Shown: in pieces, positions 22,348 to 35,274 of the stretch
Layout of the letters: the number at the start of each line of letters is the position of its first letter
Numbering within the stretch: position 1 is the stretch's first letter
Assembly: GCA_028697205.1 (NCBI GenBank)
Contig: JAQVFO010000005.1
Location: 1-59,270, forward strand
DNA: 59,270 nt
Direction: 5' to 3'
Source of the DNA: Candidatus Altimarinota bacterium
GTDB lineage: Bacteria > Patescibacteriota > Gracilibacteria > BD1-5 > UBA6164
Translations under genes and position numbers: made by a program
The notes under the pieces: model-generated
Database searches by the model: none
What the model was told of the DNA's origin: nothing
Seen by the model: only the letters and a program-made list of their open reading frames with translations

Positions 22348-22980
22348 TTATAATGTTTTTTCTTTATTTAAAGCTTCATAAACTTCTCAAGCTATTTTTA
22401 TTGATGGAGTAAGTGTAGTATTACCTTTTACCCATTTAGCAGGACAAGCTATTCAAGGATTTGCTCTCATATGTTGAAGAGCTTCTATCTTTCTTATTAA
22501 TTCCTCACTGTTTCTTCCAAGAGGTCCAGAAGTAACTTCTATAACTCTTACTATTCAGTCTGGATCAATTACAAATGTTCATCTTCATGCAATTCCACTA
22601 TCTTCATCAAGAATATTGTAAGCATCAGCAACTTCTAAATTATGATCAGCAAGCATCATATAAGGGAAATTTTGCATAAGTCTTTCATGTTTTACCCATG
22701 CTCTATGAGAGAAAACTGTATCAGTTGAGGCAGTAAGAACTGTAACTCATAAAGTTTCAAATACATCTCTAGCATCTGCCATATCTTTTAATTCAGTAGG
22801 ACAAACAAATGTAAAATCTGCAGGGTAGTAAAATAATACAACCCATTTTCCTTTCATACTATCTAAACTAACTTTTGTTTCATCATCAGTTAAAGGATTA
22901 TATGCTGGTAAATCAAATTTAGGAGCTTCACAATCTATTTTTACTTGGTGAAATAATATTTCTCATTCACAACAACTCAT
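22348..22980 (-). CDS. 2-Cys peroxiredoxin (AhpC/Prx1 family)
   Basis: The 210-residue protein reduces hydrogen peroxide and organic hydroperoxides. The peroxidatic site YYPADFTFVCPTE places the active Cys at residue 60, and the resolving Cys lies in ACPAKW at about residue 179, so it is a typical 2-Cys enzyme. Conserved Arg in GPLGRNSEE is present. The N-terminus carries an extra Cys pair (MSCCEGE), which is unusual. No dedicated AhpF or thioredoxin reductase is nearby. A Fur/PerR-like operator overlapping the probable -10 box lies about 92 bases upstream. Confidence 0.95.
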
Positions 22981-23004: not shown

Positions 23005-23034
23005 TAGGAAATGTTAATTATTTAACATTTCCTA
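23005..23034 (-). other. 13-bp inverted repeat in the peroxiredoxin leader
   Basis: TAGGAAATGTTAA / TTAACATTTCCTA with a 4-base loop. It may be a leader hairpin of the peroxiredoxin mRNA or a terminator for pyk read-through, since it lies between pyk and the peroxiredoxin gene. The following T-run is weak. Confidence 0.55.
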
Positions 23035-23071
23035 AAATATATTCCAAAAAGATTTTAAGTCAAATTTATTT

Positions 23072-23091
23072 TGAGAATTATTCTCATTATA
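23072..23091 (-). promoter_or_regulatory. Fur/PerR-like operator fused to -10 box of the peroxiredoxin gene
   Basis: The perfect 7-1-7 palindrome TGAGAATTATTCTCA occupies 23072-23086. Read on the minus strand it begins at the last T of TATAAT (23086-23091), giving TATAATGAGAAT. The same arrangement occurs before sodB at 29384-29403. The TATAAT also contains the TAA stop codon of pyk. It resembles the TGATAATNATTATCA Fur consensus of the literature. Confidence 0.65.
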
Positions 23092-29270: not shown

Positions 29271-29383
29271 AAGTATAATTAATTAAGAATTAATAGGTAT
29301 TAGATACTAAAAAAATCGTTTTGTTAATTGTATGAAAAAAGTTTAATTTTTCAAAAAATAATTTGTAAAAATAATTAAATTAA

Positions 29384-29403
29384 TATAATGAGAATTGTTA
29401 TCA
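29384..29403 (+). promoter_or_regulatory. sodB -10 box fused to a Fur/PerR-like operator
   Basis: TATAAT at 29384-29389 shares its last T with TGAGAATTGTTATCA (29389-29403), a 7-1-7 dyad one half of which is identical to the peroxiredoxin operator. A weak -35 (TTTGTA, 29362-29367) lies 16 bases upstream. Binding there would block polymerase. Confidence 0.65.
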
Positions 29404-29418
29404 TTTAAATATATAATT

Positions 29419-30063
29419 ATGAAATTTGAATTACCAAAATTATCTTATGAACTAGATGCTTTAGAACCATACATATCAAAGGAAACAATGGAGTATCATT
29501 ATGGGAAACATCACCAAACTTATGTAACAAATTTAAATAATTTAATTGTTTGAACAGAGTTTGAAAATATGAGCTTGGAAGAAATTATAAAAAAAGCTCC
29601 AGCTTGACCTATTTTTAACAATGCAGCACAAGTTTGGAATCATACATTTTATTTCACAACTTTAAATTCACCTAAAATTATGATGGAAAAAGCTTGAGTT
29701 TGAAATTTATATACTCAAGAGAATAAGTGAAAAGATTGGACAGCTCCAAAATGATGAACTAAATTAGTTAATTTAATGGCAAAAAAATGGCCTCATCATG
29801 ATGATTTTAAAAAAGAATTTTCAGATATGGCTCTTAAAAATTTTGGTTCAGGTTGGACTTGGCTTGTTTTGAATACAGCTTGAGAATTAGAAATAATAAA
29901 TACTTCGAACGCTTGAACTCCTTTAACTACAGAAAATAAACCTTTATTAACTTGTGATATTTGGGAACATGCTTATTACATAGATTGTAGAAATGTAAGA
30001 GCAAAATATATAGAAAATTTTTGGAGTTTAGTAGATTGGAGATTGGTAGAGGAAAGAGTGTAA
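29419..30063 (+). CDS. sodB: Superoxide dismutase, Fe type
   Basis: The 214-residue enzyme has the four metal ligands of the Fe/Mn family: His27 in [10 protein letters not shown], His in [11 protein letters not shown], and Asp and His in [12 protein letters not shown]. The [10 protein letters not shown] glutamine and FGSGWTWLV are the residues that mark the iron form; the manganese form has GGHxNH and a different Gln. A short insertion ([15 protein letters not shown]) follows the second ligand. It stands alone between an operator/promoter and a terminator. An oxygen-defence role alongside the peroxiredoxin is expected, and the shared operator supports joint regulation. Confidence 0.95.
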
Positions 30064-30173: not shown

Positions 30174-31136
30174 ATGGAAAAAGAATTAGTAAAAGAGTAT
30201 AGTGAAAAGATAGATAATTTAAGACAAGAAATAAAAAAAATTGTTGTATGACAAGACTTACTTGTAAGAGACTTGCTTATAACTCTTTTTTGTAAATGAC
30301 ATATACTTATAGAGTGAGTTCCTGGTCTTGCAAAAACCCTTACTATTTCAAGTTTAGCAAAATCAATAGATTTAGACTTTTCACGTCTACAGTTTACCCC
30401 AGATTTATTACCAAGTGATTTGATATGAGCTAGAGTTTATACTCCTGAAACAAAAGAATTCTATGTGAAAACATGACCAGTTGTATCAAATTTTGTATTA
30501 GCTGATGAAATAAATCGTGCTCCATCAAAAGTACAATCTGCACTTTTAGAAGCAATGGCAGAAAGACAAATAACTATTGCAGATAAAACAATTAAATTAG
30601 ATGAACCTTTTATTGTATTAGCTACTCAAAATCCAATTGAACAAGATTGAACGTATAGTTTACCTGAAGCACAACTTGATAGATTTTTATTTAAAACAAT
30701 TGTAAATTATCCAAGTGAACAAGAGGAAATTGAAATAATGAAAAATAATACTTTAAATTTAGATTTATCTAGTGTAAAAAAAGTACTTTGAAAAAAAGAT
30801 ATCTTAAAAATTCAAGAAATAGTAGGAGAGATTTATGTAGATCAAAATATATTTGAGTACATAAAAGATATAGTTTTTTATACTAGAGATAATAAAAATG
30901 ATGTTTGAAAATATTTGTTTTACTGAGCTTCACCAAGAGCATCTATTTCTCTTTTAATAGCTGCAAAAGCACTTGCATTTTTATCATGAAGAGATTTTGT
31001 TATTCCTGAAGATGTAAAAGAAATATCTAAACAAGTACTTAGACATAGACTTATTATGAATTATGAAGCAATAGCAGAAAATATATGAGTAGATGATTTA
31101 ATTGATACTATATTAAATAAAGTAAAAGTAAAATAG
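30174..31136 (+). CDS. moxR: MoxR-family AAA+ ATPase
   Basis: The 320-residue ATPase has Walker A EGVPGLAKT near residue 45, the MoxR-typical [14 protein letters not shown], Walker [22 protein letters not shown], sensor 1 [22 protein letters not shown] and sensor 2 GASPRASI. MoxR proteins act as chaperone-like partners of vWA proteins. It heads a six-gene cluster in the order of the Bacteroides aerotolerance (Bat) operon. The stop is TAG. Confidence 0.93.
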
Positions 31137-31195
31137 TTACTCATTTTTTTAACTTAGATACTGCCAATATAAATTACTAAATACTAAGTATTAAT

Positions 31196-32173
31196 ATGGA
31201 TTATTTATCAAAATTTAAGAAACTTGATTTAAAAACAAAAAAAATGATTTCATGAAATTTAGCATGAAATTTTAAAAGTGTTTTTAGATGAAGATGACTT
31301 GAATTTGATGAATTCAAAGAATATGAAGAATGAGAAGATTCAAAATACATAGATTGGCTAGTATCTGCTCGTGAACAAAGACTTTTAACAAAAAAATTTG
31401 TTGTTGATAAAAGTATAAAAGTGTTTTTTGTTATTGATAAAACAAAAAGTATGGATTTCTGATTTGATAAAAAGAAAATAGATACATTAATTGAAGTTTT
31501 TTTCTTATTAGCTTTATCTTCTGAGGAAAATTCAGATGAAGTATGATCTTTGATTTTTGATGAAAATAGTATGAAATTTTTTGATACTAAAAAATGAAAA
31601 GCTCATATATTTGAAATTTATAAAAATATAGTTGAAAACTTATTTGAGAAAGAAAAAAATTGAAATATTAAAGTAACAAAGAAAGTAATTAAAGTAATTA
31701 AAAATGGTTTAATAATTAGTAAAAATAAAATTTCTTGATTTTATTGAAAATGAAAAAATTATAATGAATGAAAATGAAATATTTTAAACTCTACTTTTTC
31801 TTTTCTAAATAAAATAAAACTTAAAAATACTTTACTTTTTATTTTATCTGATAAGATGGAAACTCTTGATGATAAAAATTTAAAAATACTTGCTTTAAAA
31901 AATGATATTATATTTGTAAATATTTTTGATAATTTTGAAAATACTCTTGAGTCAAATGAAACTGAATGAGTATTATGATTTTTATCAAATTTATGAAATA
32001 AAATATTTATAGATAATACAACTGATGAAAAAAAAGATGAATATAAAAAATTAAGAGAGAAAAAAATTAAAGATTTTTCTATTTACTTAAACAGAATGTG
32101 AATTAGTTATCTAAAAATTGATAATTTAACAAATATTTATAAAGAATTTTTTAATTTTTTTAATAAAAAATAA
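31196..32173 (+). CDS. DUF58 protein (vWA-like, Bat cluster)
   Basis: The 325-residue protein has the DUF58 core: FRGRGLEFDEFKEYEEGEDSKYIDWLVSAR is the conserved G-x-E-F-x-x-x-R-x-Y-x-x-G-D-x-x-R-x-I-D-W segment with the Arg replaced by Lys/Glu. A vWA-like strand FFVIDKTKSMDFG follows. The MIDAS-type DxSxS is degraded here (DKTKS), so metal binding is doubtful. It sits between moxR and the BatD-like gene with 59 and 2 bases of spacing, the usual order. Confidence 0.85.
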
Positions 32174-32175
32174 AT

Positions 32176-33102
32176 ATGAAAAAAATACTACTATTATCTT
32201 TTTTATTTACTTTCTTATTTTCAAATGTAAATGCTGAGACTTGAAATTTAGATCAGGTAAAGTTAAGTACAGATGAAACAAATATAAGTATATGACAAAA
32301 TTTTAGTTTAAATTTAAGTATTCCTATAACAAACCAAGCTGATATTTGAGATATTAGTGTTGTATGACTAGAAAAATTTCAAAATTTTTGAACTAGTTCA
32401 TCATTTAAATATGAAAATATTAATTGAAGTCAGAAGTGATCTTATGATATGCATATAAACTTAAAACCAACTGATTTTTGAAAATTTATTATATGACCTG
32501 CAAGTATAAAAGTAGGGGATAAAATACTTAAAAGTAATACTGTAGAAATTGAAGTAACCTGAGTTAACTCAAATTGAAATCCAAAAATGGCTACTTGAGT
32601 TTTAACAAATACCTGAAATTTAGAAATGAAGGATATAAATGATATAAAATGACCAAAAAGTTTTTTTAATTTTAGTTTTTGGTTTATTCCTATTTTTTTA
32701 GTATTTTTATTTTTTATAGGATTTTATTATCTTCTTAAATATTATTTTATGTGAAAAGAAGAAAAAAATATGAATAAAGAAGTTGAGATTAAAAGAGAAA
32801 AGAGTAAAACAGATTATTTTAAAGATAAATTAAAACATATAGAAAAAAATATAGAAACATATGATAAGTCAGAATTTTTTGCTTTAATAAATGATTTTTT
32901 AAGAGAATTCTTGGAATATAAGTGATTGAATCATGCTAGAAATATGACATTTAAAGAGTTGGAAAGTCATAAAAATTTAATTGATTTAGATTTGTTTAGA
33001 ATTATAAAAGATACTTATTTTTATGAATTTATGGAAGAGGAAGATGAGTGAAAGATTGATAAAAAAGAGATTTTAAGTGAAATTAAAAAACTTATAAAAT
33101 AA
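32176..33102 (+). CDS. BatD-like membrane protein
   Basis: The 308-residue protein has a Sec signal peptide (KKILLLSFLFTFLFSNVNA, cleavage about residue 20), an extracytoplasmic beta domain of the oxygen-tolerance/BatD type (KLSTDETNISIGQNFSLNL.. is the classic start), one membrane helix near residues 170-195 (FWFIPIFLVFLFFIGFYYLL) and a charged cytoplasmic tail of about 110 residues. It starts 2 bases after the DUF58 gene. Its role is inferred from the cluster and topology. Confidence 0.8.
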
Positions 33103-33107
33103 AGTAA

Positions 33108-33127
33108 TAGCCGGGAAGTCCCGGCTA
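33108..33127. other. GC-rich 9-bp hairpin inside the Bat cluster
   Basis: TAGCCGGGA / TCCCGGCTA with a 2-base centre, 6 bases after the BatD-like stop. It is one of the most GC-rich 20 bases in the window. A T-rich run begins 20 bases later. It may partly terminate transcription, stabilise the upstream mRNA or be processed. Confidence 0.6.
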
Positions 33128-33291
33128 AGTCTAAGAAAACAATCTCCTTTTTTTCTTTGTACTTACTTTTCTTAACAGATATTTTAGAAATTTTATTAAT
33201 TTTTTTTCTTTTTTAATAAAGATTTCCCTTTTCATTTTCGTTCCTAAAAATTGTAGGTTTCGACATTTTATTTAAATTTATAAAAAATCAA

Positions 33292-34284
33292 ATGAATAAT
33301 TTAATTTTTTTGGATAAATATTATTTTTTGCTTCTCATTCCACTATTTTTGATTTTATTTTATCTTTTTTTTAGAAATAAAAATAAAATAGATTTTGCTT
33401 TTTTTGATGATTTAAAATTAGTTTATAAACAGAATAGTTTTTTTTACTATACTTTTTTTATACTTATTATTGTTATAAGTATTTTATATATAATTATTTT
33501 AGCAAATCCAAATAAAGAAAATTCAAGTGAAACAGTTAAAAAAAATGGTATAGATATAGTTTTGGTTTTTGATATAAGTTATAGTATGGAAGCTGAAGAT
33601 CTAAAACCAAATAGAATTCAAGTTGCTCGTGATGTTATATCAAATTTCTTATGAAGTTTAAAGACAGATAGAGTATGAGTTGTAGTATTTTCTTGAAAAC
33701 CTTTTATTTCTATTCCTTTAACTTTTGATTATGAGTTTTTAAAAGACTATGTTAAGTGAATTTCAACATCAACTATAGATCAAAATAATTGAAATTTACA
33801 ATGAACTGCTCTCTGAGATGCTATGCTTATGGGAAGCTATTTATTTGATGATAAAAGTAAAGATAGAGAGAAAGTTATGATTGTTGTTACAGACTGAGAA
33901 GCTAATAAAGGATTAACTCCTGAGGTTGCATTGAAATTATTAAAAGAAAAAAATATAAAAGCATATTCAATATGAATCTGATGAAATGATAAAACTTATG
34001 TTTATGTAAATGATGTATTTTGAAATAAATTAAAAGTTGAAATATGATGAGTTGATGAAGAAACTTTAAAAAAAATTGCATCAGAAACTAATTGAAAATA
34101 TTATAGAGCAACTTCAAGTGAAATTTTTAAAGAAATATTTGATAATATAAATAAACTTGAGAAAAAAGATATAGAGGTAGAGGTAAAAAAAATGTATATT
34201 TCAGAATATAGTATTTTCTATTATTTACTTTTATTTTTTGAATTTTTATTTGTAATTTTGCTTTTTAAAAGAGTGAGAGTTTAA
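33292..34284 (+). CDS. batA: vWA-domain membrane protein, BatA-like
   Basis: The 330-residue protein has two N-terminal membrane helices (residues about 8-27 and 50-70), a periplasmic vWA domain with an intact metal-ion-dependent adhesion site (VFDISYSMEAED, DxSxS; then NLQGTALGDAM and VVTDGEAN), and a C-terminal membrane helix. This topology matches BatA/BatB. MIDAS residues suggest divalent-metal-dependent protein binding. It precedes a second vWA gene by 18 bases. Confidence 0.9.
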
Positions 34285-34302
34285 TAAAATAATTATAAAT
34301 TT

Positions 34303-35274
34303 ATGATTTTTACAAATTTAAACATTTTTATATCTATAATTTTTATAATATTTTGTATAATTATTTTTTTAGTTGTATATAAAAATTATTTTGAATATAA
34401 AAAAACTTGAAGTACTTATAGATTTTTAAGTGTAATTTTTTTAATTCTTTCATTTTTTGTATTATCCATTGCAATTTTTTGAATTAAAGTTTTTAAGACT
34501 GAAAATAATTCTTATTTATGAACAAATGTAGTTTTTGTACTAGATGTTTCTAAAAGTATGAAAGCTTTAGATTTCTCTAATAATAATGAAACATATTCTA
34601 GGTTATCTGCAGCAAAAAAATTTATAAGTGATTTTGTAATAAAAAATCCTTGAAATAGATACGCTTTAACAGTTTTTGCATGAGATGCTGAAAGAGTTTT
34701 ACCTTTTACAAATGACGCTAATTTATTTCTAACAATACTTTCTTGAGTTGATGAAAACAATGTTACAATTCAATGAACAAATTTGAAAGAAGCTATAAAT
34801 TCATGACTTAGAAATTTTACAAAAGATGATACTTTTTGACTTATGGTAGTTCTTACTGATTGAGATGATGAAAATAAAATAAATATGACAGATTTTGAAA
34901 ATTTTAAAAATAAAAAAGATATAAAATCAGTTGTAGTTTGAGTTTGAACAACAAAATGAGCTTATATACCTATATGAAATGATCCTTTTTGAGATGTAAT
35001 ATATAAAACATATAATTGACAAAAAGTTATCACAAAGTTAAGTGATACATCGTTAAAAGAGCTTGCTAAAATATTAAATTGAGATTATTATAATCTAGAT
35101 GATATATGAAGAATTGATAAGATTTGATCTACTTTATCTAGTATTTCAAAAAAAATTTTTTATTCTAAATCTGAAAATTTTGTAGATATGACTAGATTGT
35201 TTGTTTATATTTCTTTTGTATTTTTTATTATTTATTTATTGTTTTTGATTAAATATGATAAAAGAAAAAAATAA
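34303..35274 (+). CDS. batB: vWA-domain membrane protein, BatB-like
   Basis: This 323-residue paralogue of the preceding gene has two N-terminal helices, MIDAS motifs VLDVSKSMKALD, TIQGTNLKEAI and VLTDGDDEN, and a C-terminal membrane helix (FVYISFVFFIIYLLFLI). Tandem batA-batB is characteristic of the Bat operon. Its last 20 bases overlap the next gene. Confidence 0.9.

Follow-up and report, generated by a model that had tools for sequence, protein, structure and literature searches.

A putative Fur-family operator overlapping the sod promoter and a probable compact oxidative-stress regulon in a Gracilibacteria genome

In a Gracilibacteria genome of 1.27 Mb (G000), a dyad at 29389-29403 in front of the superoxide dismutase gene sod is, with high probability to judge from sequence, the operator of the only Fur-family protein encoded in the genome. 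This protein, referred to here as short Fur, would be a metal-bound repressor released by peroxide or by loss of the metal. Very likely it is this operator that controls a compact oxidative-stress regulon of about eight mostly antioxidant genes. The window, that is, the whole stretch of DNA that was analysed, comprises bases 1 to 59,270 of contig C14; ORFs of at least 100 aa cover 93% of it, and TGA is a glycine codon in this genome. The genome-wide search consisted of pattern searches and of the stretches around the matches. Sites were scored with a 23-bp matrix (consensus AAAATGAGAATAATTCTCATTTT) derived from 50 training sites, all of them in other genomes and located upstream of short fur and of genes of P4, an unannotated protein family. 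The features of the sod locus are as follows (window coordinates):

29363..29368, + strand: candidate -35 element TTGTAA of sod (15-bp spacer, weak, predicted only)
29384..29389, + strand: -10 element TATAAT of the sod promoter (same hexamer and position in relatives)
29389..29403, no strand: 7-1-7 operator TGAGAATTGTTATCA, overlapping the sod -10 box and the predicted start site (19.9 bits)
29419..30063, + strand: sod, Fe/Mn superoxide dismutase, 214 aa, TGA read as Gly (PF02777 1.1e-36, PF00081 3.7e-33)

The preliminary description of this DNA had proposed that the -10 box of sod is fused to an operator of the Fur family, and this is borne out: TATAAT and the dyad TGAGAATTGTTATCA have the T at 29389 in common, and relatives keep the geometry. 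The full composite from 29384 reads TATAATGAGAATTGTTATCA, and the dyad centre lies 23 bp before the sod ATG (29419). The dyad is imperfect, with half-sites matching at 5/7 positions (TGAGAAT vs TGATAAC). In G000 and six relatives (genera g1, g10 and g20) the sod box is located 22-24 bp before the ATG, and the first base of the -10 element lies 12 bp before the box centre, the element being TATAAT in five of these relatives and TATATT in the sixth. TTGAAA is found at a place similar to that of the candidate -35 in G001, G029 and G035. The sod box is decayed or absent in two relatives of the same genus, G002 and G004, and in some relatives with a decayed box a TATAAT-like hexamer is still nearby. 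On the 3' side of sod, past a likely terminator, there is a MoxR ATPase - DUF58 - BatD - VWA - VWA cluster (30174-35271, +) that resembles the Bacteroides aerotolerance (bat) operon; no box was found upstream of it.

The window has exactly two copies of TATAATGAGAAT, one at sod and the other at 23080-23091, in front of prx, a gene for an AhpC-type peroxiredoxin. The prx locus contains the following features:

23086..23091, - strand: TATAAT abutting the prx box and containing the pyruvate kinase stop codon (not conserved in G001 and most relatives)
23072..23086, read on the - strand: perfect palindromic prx operator TGAGAATAATTCTCA (27.6 bits, the best in the window)
23058..23063, - strand: prx -35 element TTGACT, 8 bp past the box (TTGA spacing kept in relatives)
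23036..23041, - strand: prx -10 element TATATT, 16-bp spacer (from sequence; kept in G001, L234)
23005..23034, - strand: 13-bp perfect stem-loop in the prx leader (-14.4 kcal/mol, z -4.8; near-identical stem in G001)
22348..22980, - strand: prx, AhpC-type peroxiredoxin, 210 aa (PF00578 1.3e-36; TIGR03137 1.7e-60, below its cut-off)

The same composite as at sod had been claimed for prx, and here the claim has to be corrected. The TATAAT at 23091-23086 is probably not the prx -10 element, since it includes the stop codon of pyk and is missing from the close relative G001, which keeps a promoter downstream of the box. The predicted prx promoter is this downstream one, consisting of the box, 8 bp, TTGACT, 16 bp and TATATT, which places the box centre near -50. 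The stem-loop at 23005-23034 stands at the 5' end of the predicted prx transcript and is either the terminator of pyruvate kinase or a stabilising prx leader.

Strong boxes were found in the genome 20-110 bp before several genes or gene pairs. Besides prx and sod, these are the P4 gene, which has two boxes 58 bp apart (30.2 and 29.7 bits), the glutamate dehydrogenase gene gdh (28.9 bits), gnd-zwf, coding for 6-phosphogluconate dehydrogenase and then glucose-6-phosphate dehydrogenase (27.6 bits), trxB, coding for a thioredoxin reductase-like protein (25.7 bits), and the triosephosphate isomerase gene tpi with a divergent DedA-type gene (19.9 bits). The box of fur itself is weak (14.9 bits). The boxed genes form a coherent theme, peroxide and superoxide removal and NADPH supply, into which gdh and tpi/dedA, not being obvious redox genes, fit less well. 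Of the small redox or iron regulon proposed before, the redox part is retained, the targets being mostly antioxidant or NADPH-making, and no support was obtained for a regulon of iron uptake: FeoB (FeoB_C) was not found in the genome, and none of the boxed genes is an iron-uptake gene. A LysR-substrate (OxyR-type) domain was not found in the genome either. Many sites at unrelated places, which would speak against a regulon, were not encountered; the strong sites all lie just before genes, and the weaker matches examined are mostly within reading frames. Pattern matches at C12:120578, C12:172142, C3:16021, C3:25388 and other places were not accepted as operators because they are inside reading frames, and C12:64593, near ATP synthase genes, because it reaches only 1.0 bits on the matrix.

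Two promoter geometries recur among this genome and its relatives. Class I boxes either overlap the -10 element or come after it, as in sod, gnd, P4 and trxB of G000. In class II the box stands 7-8 bp before a TTGA or TTGC -35 element, with its centre near -50; members are prx (TTGA in 13 of the 15 sites at least 60 bp from the ATG), fur (21/33 sites) and gdh of G000. The prx box of relatives is mostly 74-153 bp before the gene, usually 90-107. In relatives, prx is the gene boxed most often; trxB is boxed there too, as are genes for thioredoxin, glutamate dehydrogenase, a canonical Dps and a ZIP transporter. In the order-level relatives L213, L217, L219 and L229 a protein of about 390 aa (start like MNQLEQAC.DI..KNM) is also boxed; one copy was scanned and had no Pfam match.

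From these data we infer binding, its repressive sign, the metal and peroxide as the signal. A dimer of metal-bound short Fur would occupy boxes of the TGAGAATNATTCTCA type and block RNA polymerase, at sod from a box that extends over the start site and the final base of the -10 element, and at prx and fur from one near -50, just before the -35. Peroxide or metal loss would then release short Fur, and sod, prx, trxB, the NADPH-making gnd-zwf, the possibly Dps-like P4 and fur itself would be switched on. Counting against this reading are the asymmetric and weaker sod box, its absence in G002 and G004, the poor fit of tpi/dedA and gdh to a redox theme, the weak fur box and a glutamate, Glu66, at the position of PerR Asp85. 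A box near -50 could also serve activation, and a dual regulator, repressing over -10/+1 (sod, gnd, P4) and activating from near -50 before the -35 (prx, fur), would account for the tight 7-8 bp between box and -35 in prx and fur. Fur proteins acting as activators occur in Campylobacter, Helicobacter and Neisseria (PMC5940780). We nevertheless regard dual control as unlikely, because sod and prx are found in either geometry depending on the lineage, which favours the same sign, repression, for both.

Short Fur is the product of the one gene in the genome that matches PF01475 (C4:12090-12323, outside the window; full frame 115 residues; 60.4 bits against a cut-off of 23.1), so that, as the preliminary description had suggested looking for, there is exactly one Fur-family gene. 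Structures were modelled from the copies of relatives; a Fur fold is predicted, and the model of a relative matches Fur/PerR chains (61 matches at E <= 0.001). The best solved relatives of a short-Fur profile (19 members) are C. jejuni PerR, Leptospira PerRA and B. subtilis PerR. CxxC zinc motifs are absent in the G000 protein and in the short-Fur rows of the alignment. The ligands of a His3/acid2 regulatory metal site in the hinge are present: residues H37-D85-H91-H93-D104 of B. subtilis PerR correspond to H18-E66-H72-H74-D85 of short Fur, which are invariant in the 19 members. The DNA-reading position is held by an invariant Arg42, equivalent to Arg61 of Fur vs Asn61 of PerR, and the sensor position by an invariant Asp85, aligned to the Asp of GKIVDF and equivalent to PerR Asp104. 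According to published work, Asn61 or Arg decides between PerR and Fur boxes and Asp104 or Glu decides peroxide sensitivity (PMC8638851). In B. licheniformis PerR3, too, Glu takes the place of Asp85, and this protein nonetheless senses H2O2 (PMC4866751), so Glu66 does not exclude sensing.

The operator agrees with this pair of residues. It is a Fur-like box of the TGA type without the PerR form: TGATAATTATTATCA scores 8.2 bits on the matrix and the PerR-box sequence TTATAATTATTATAA -9.1. The PerR box is TTATAATNATTATAA. As read from the alignment, short Fur combines a Fur-type reader, Arg42, with a PerR-type sensor, Asp85, and the pair fits the Fur-like operator. The protein would be PerR-like without being a canonical PerR, because Asn61 is replaced by the invariant Arg42; the box is unlike the PerR box, and Glu66 stands for Asp85. 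We read it as a PerR-like redox repressor. The same reader residue and the likeness of the box to Fur boxes more than to PerR boxes would also suit a classical iron-sensing Fur, with the box reporting the iron level and sod and prx belonging to an iron-sparing response. This is distinctly improbable, given the PerR-type Asp85 at the sensor position, the failure to find FeoB in the genome and a set of boxed genes without iron uptake.

Less probable still is a manganese or zinc sensor of the Mur or Zur kind with indirect redox targets. Its attractions are that SOD is of the Fe/Mn type and that a ZIP-family metal transporter is boxed in genus g4, but transporters are not among the core targets, which across genera are prx, trxB and fur, and the sensor position carries the Asp of PerR. 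In g4 (L243 and L255, box at 1601) the box lies between the ZIP metal transporter and a divergent gene of about 490 aa, which may point to a branch of the regulon devoted to metal supply.

In favour of short Fur as the protein that acts on the box, the two occur together across genomes. The exact palindrome was present in 39/49 genomes with short Fur vs 2/50 without it (99 genomes; Fisher 9e-16), and at the genus level in 19/26 vs 1/30 (p 2.5e-8); the box is almost never found in genomes with the longer Fur type only or with no Fur. At 12 or more of 14 matches, a box precedes short fur in 26/29 oriented upstream regions and P4 in 18/22, the frequency in shuffles being about 0.001. G083, which has no Fur match, contains one exact palindrome, probably by chance or through a missing gene. 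Exact palindromes inside reading frames were noted in L207, L211, L212, L230, L231, L233 and L235 (position 1601), where ORF calling was crude; they may be due to mis-called ORFs or be real intragenic boxes.

Within G000, TGAGAATNNTTNTCA at one mismatch or less gave 69 matches, whereas its reversed control gave 17; for TGAGAATNATTCTCA, the palindrome without mismatches, the numbers were 4 and 0. The generic box TGATAATNATTATCA had no exact site in the genome and was hardly enriched (102 matches vs 67 for the control), which shows that the G at position 4 is important. Within the window, counts that allowed mismatches showed no excess over shuffles (36 found and 45.7 expected; 15 found and 11.4 expected), and the local dyad alone therefore proves little. 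The matrix ranked prx first in the 59-kb window (27.6 bits) and sod second (19.9), the third site reaching 6.4; 19.9 bits was attained by 1/100 Markov sequences of window length. A chance palindrome in AT-rich DNA, for which the window counts at chance level would speak, is ruled out, as far as sequence can do this, by the co-occurrence with short Fur, by an independent matrix that places prx and sod first and second, and by conservation in three genera.

The operator also leads to P4, whose feature is:

L130 1501-1848 (G000:C13:35357-35704): P4, unannotated 116-aa family, with two operators

P4 was found only in Gracilibacteria/Patescibacteria records, and no relatives were found in viral contigs. 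In six of the relatives with names, P4 and fur stand next to each other in divergent orientation, with one or two boxes in common; in G000 they lie on different contigs, and P4 retains both boxes. The model of P4 has four helices (pLDDT 94). The best profile matches of the family are Dps proteins (HP-NAP 1JI4 and CAIP 5LBH, E 0.011-0.031, below significance), the top Foldseek rows are again Dps (best E 0.32, not significant), and Pfam Ferritin matches weakly in 7/19 members (best 0.0082). Alignment to one Dps with hhalign gave no support, and VIA-align gave middling Z values (below 8) with no family outstanding. The invariant residues H30, H45 and E49 have a Dps-like spacing; from the second His of P4 to positions +4, +15 and +19 the distances are those of Dps mini-ferritins. 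Unlike Dps, P4 has only 116 aa and His45 in place of an Asp, and the helical hairpins of its model cannot be superposed as a single bundle (rmsd about 17). P4 may well be a minimal Dps-like ferritin.

Fur/PerR regulons are well known, and the parts described here are of that kind. The new elements are the hybrid residue pair and the operator that matches it, a short form that lacks the zinc site, the use of two geometries and P4 as a partner. On balance, we lean towards an oxidative-stress response of Gracilibacteria run by a minimal zinc-free hybrid of Fur-type reader and PerR-type peroxide sensor, with its own TGAGAATNATTCTCA box, a lineage-specific and, in at least six relatives, divergent 116-aa mini-Dps and two conserved promoter geometries. 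Sequence alone here reveals an operator, its regulator and the targets, and whether they are present or absent together, in a group, the CPR, whose transcription control is almost undescribed; in the open-access literature searched, no paper on a Fur/PerR regulon of Gracilibacteria, Patescibacteria or CPR was found. The Arg/Asp pair, taken together with the Fur-like box, conforms to the published one-residue Fur/PerR code in a phylum distant from that of its discovery and makes a directly testable prediction, and the box points to an unannotated protein family, maybe a minimal ferritin.

Among known systems, Borrelia burgdorferi has in its reduced genome a single Fur/PerR homologue, BosR, which is linked to the Dps protein NapA and to a single SOD, SodA, and in this arrangement it resembles the short Fur system. 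Fur of proteobacteria and Bacillus shares with short Fur an Arg at the reader position and an inverted repeat of the TGA(G/T)AAT type, but it has Glu at the Asp104 position, where short Fur has Asp85, and typically iron-uptake targets, of which none was found here. Leptospira interrogans PerRA and PerRB are peroxide regulators without a structural zinc site (PDB 5NL9; PMC8638851, citing Kebouchi 2018), and in this they are, as Fur-family proteins, like short Fur. PerRA has a similar metal loop of the HxH...DxxTGEIxD type, and 5NL9 is the second-best PDB match of the profile. The Leptospira proteins, however, have Asn at the DNA-reading position, where short Fur has Arg42, with Glu66 as first acidic ligand, and the 5NL9 chain has 151 residues vs 115 aa. 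In B. subtilis PerR (2FE3) the profile covers residues 34-134, His37, His91, His93 and Asp104 are conserved, and the peroxidase-type targets are alike. The two proteins differ in that Asn61 is replaced by Arg42, Asp85 by Glu66 and the CxxC zinc site is absent in short Fur, and in their operators, TTATAATNATTATAA for B. subtilis PerR and TGAGAATNATTCTCA for short Fur.
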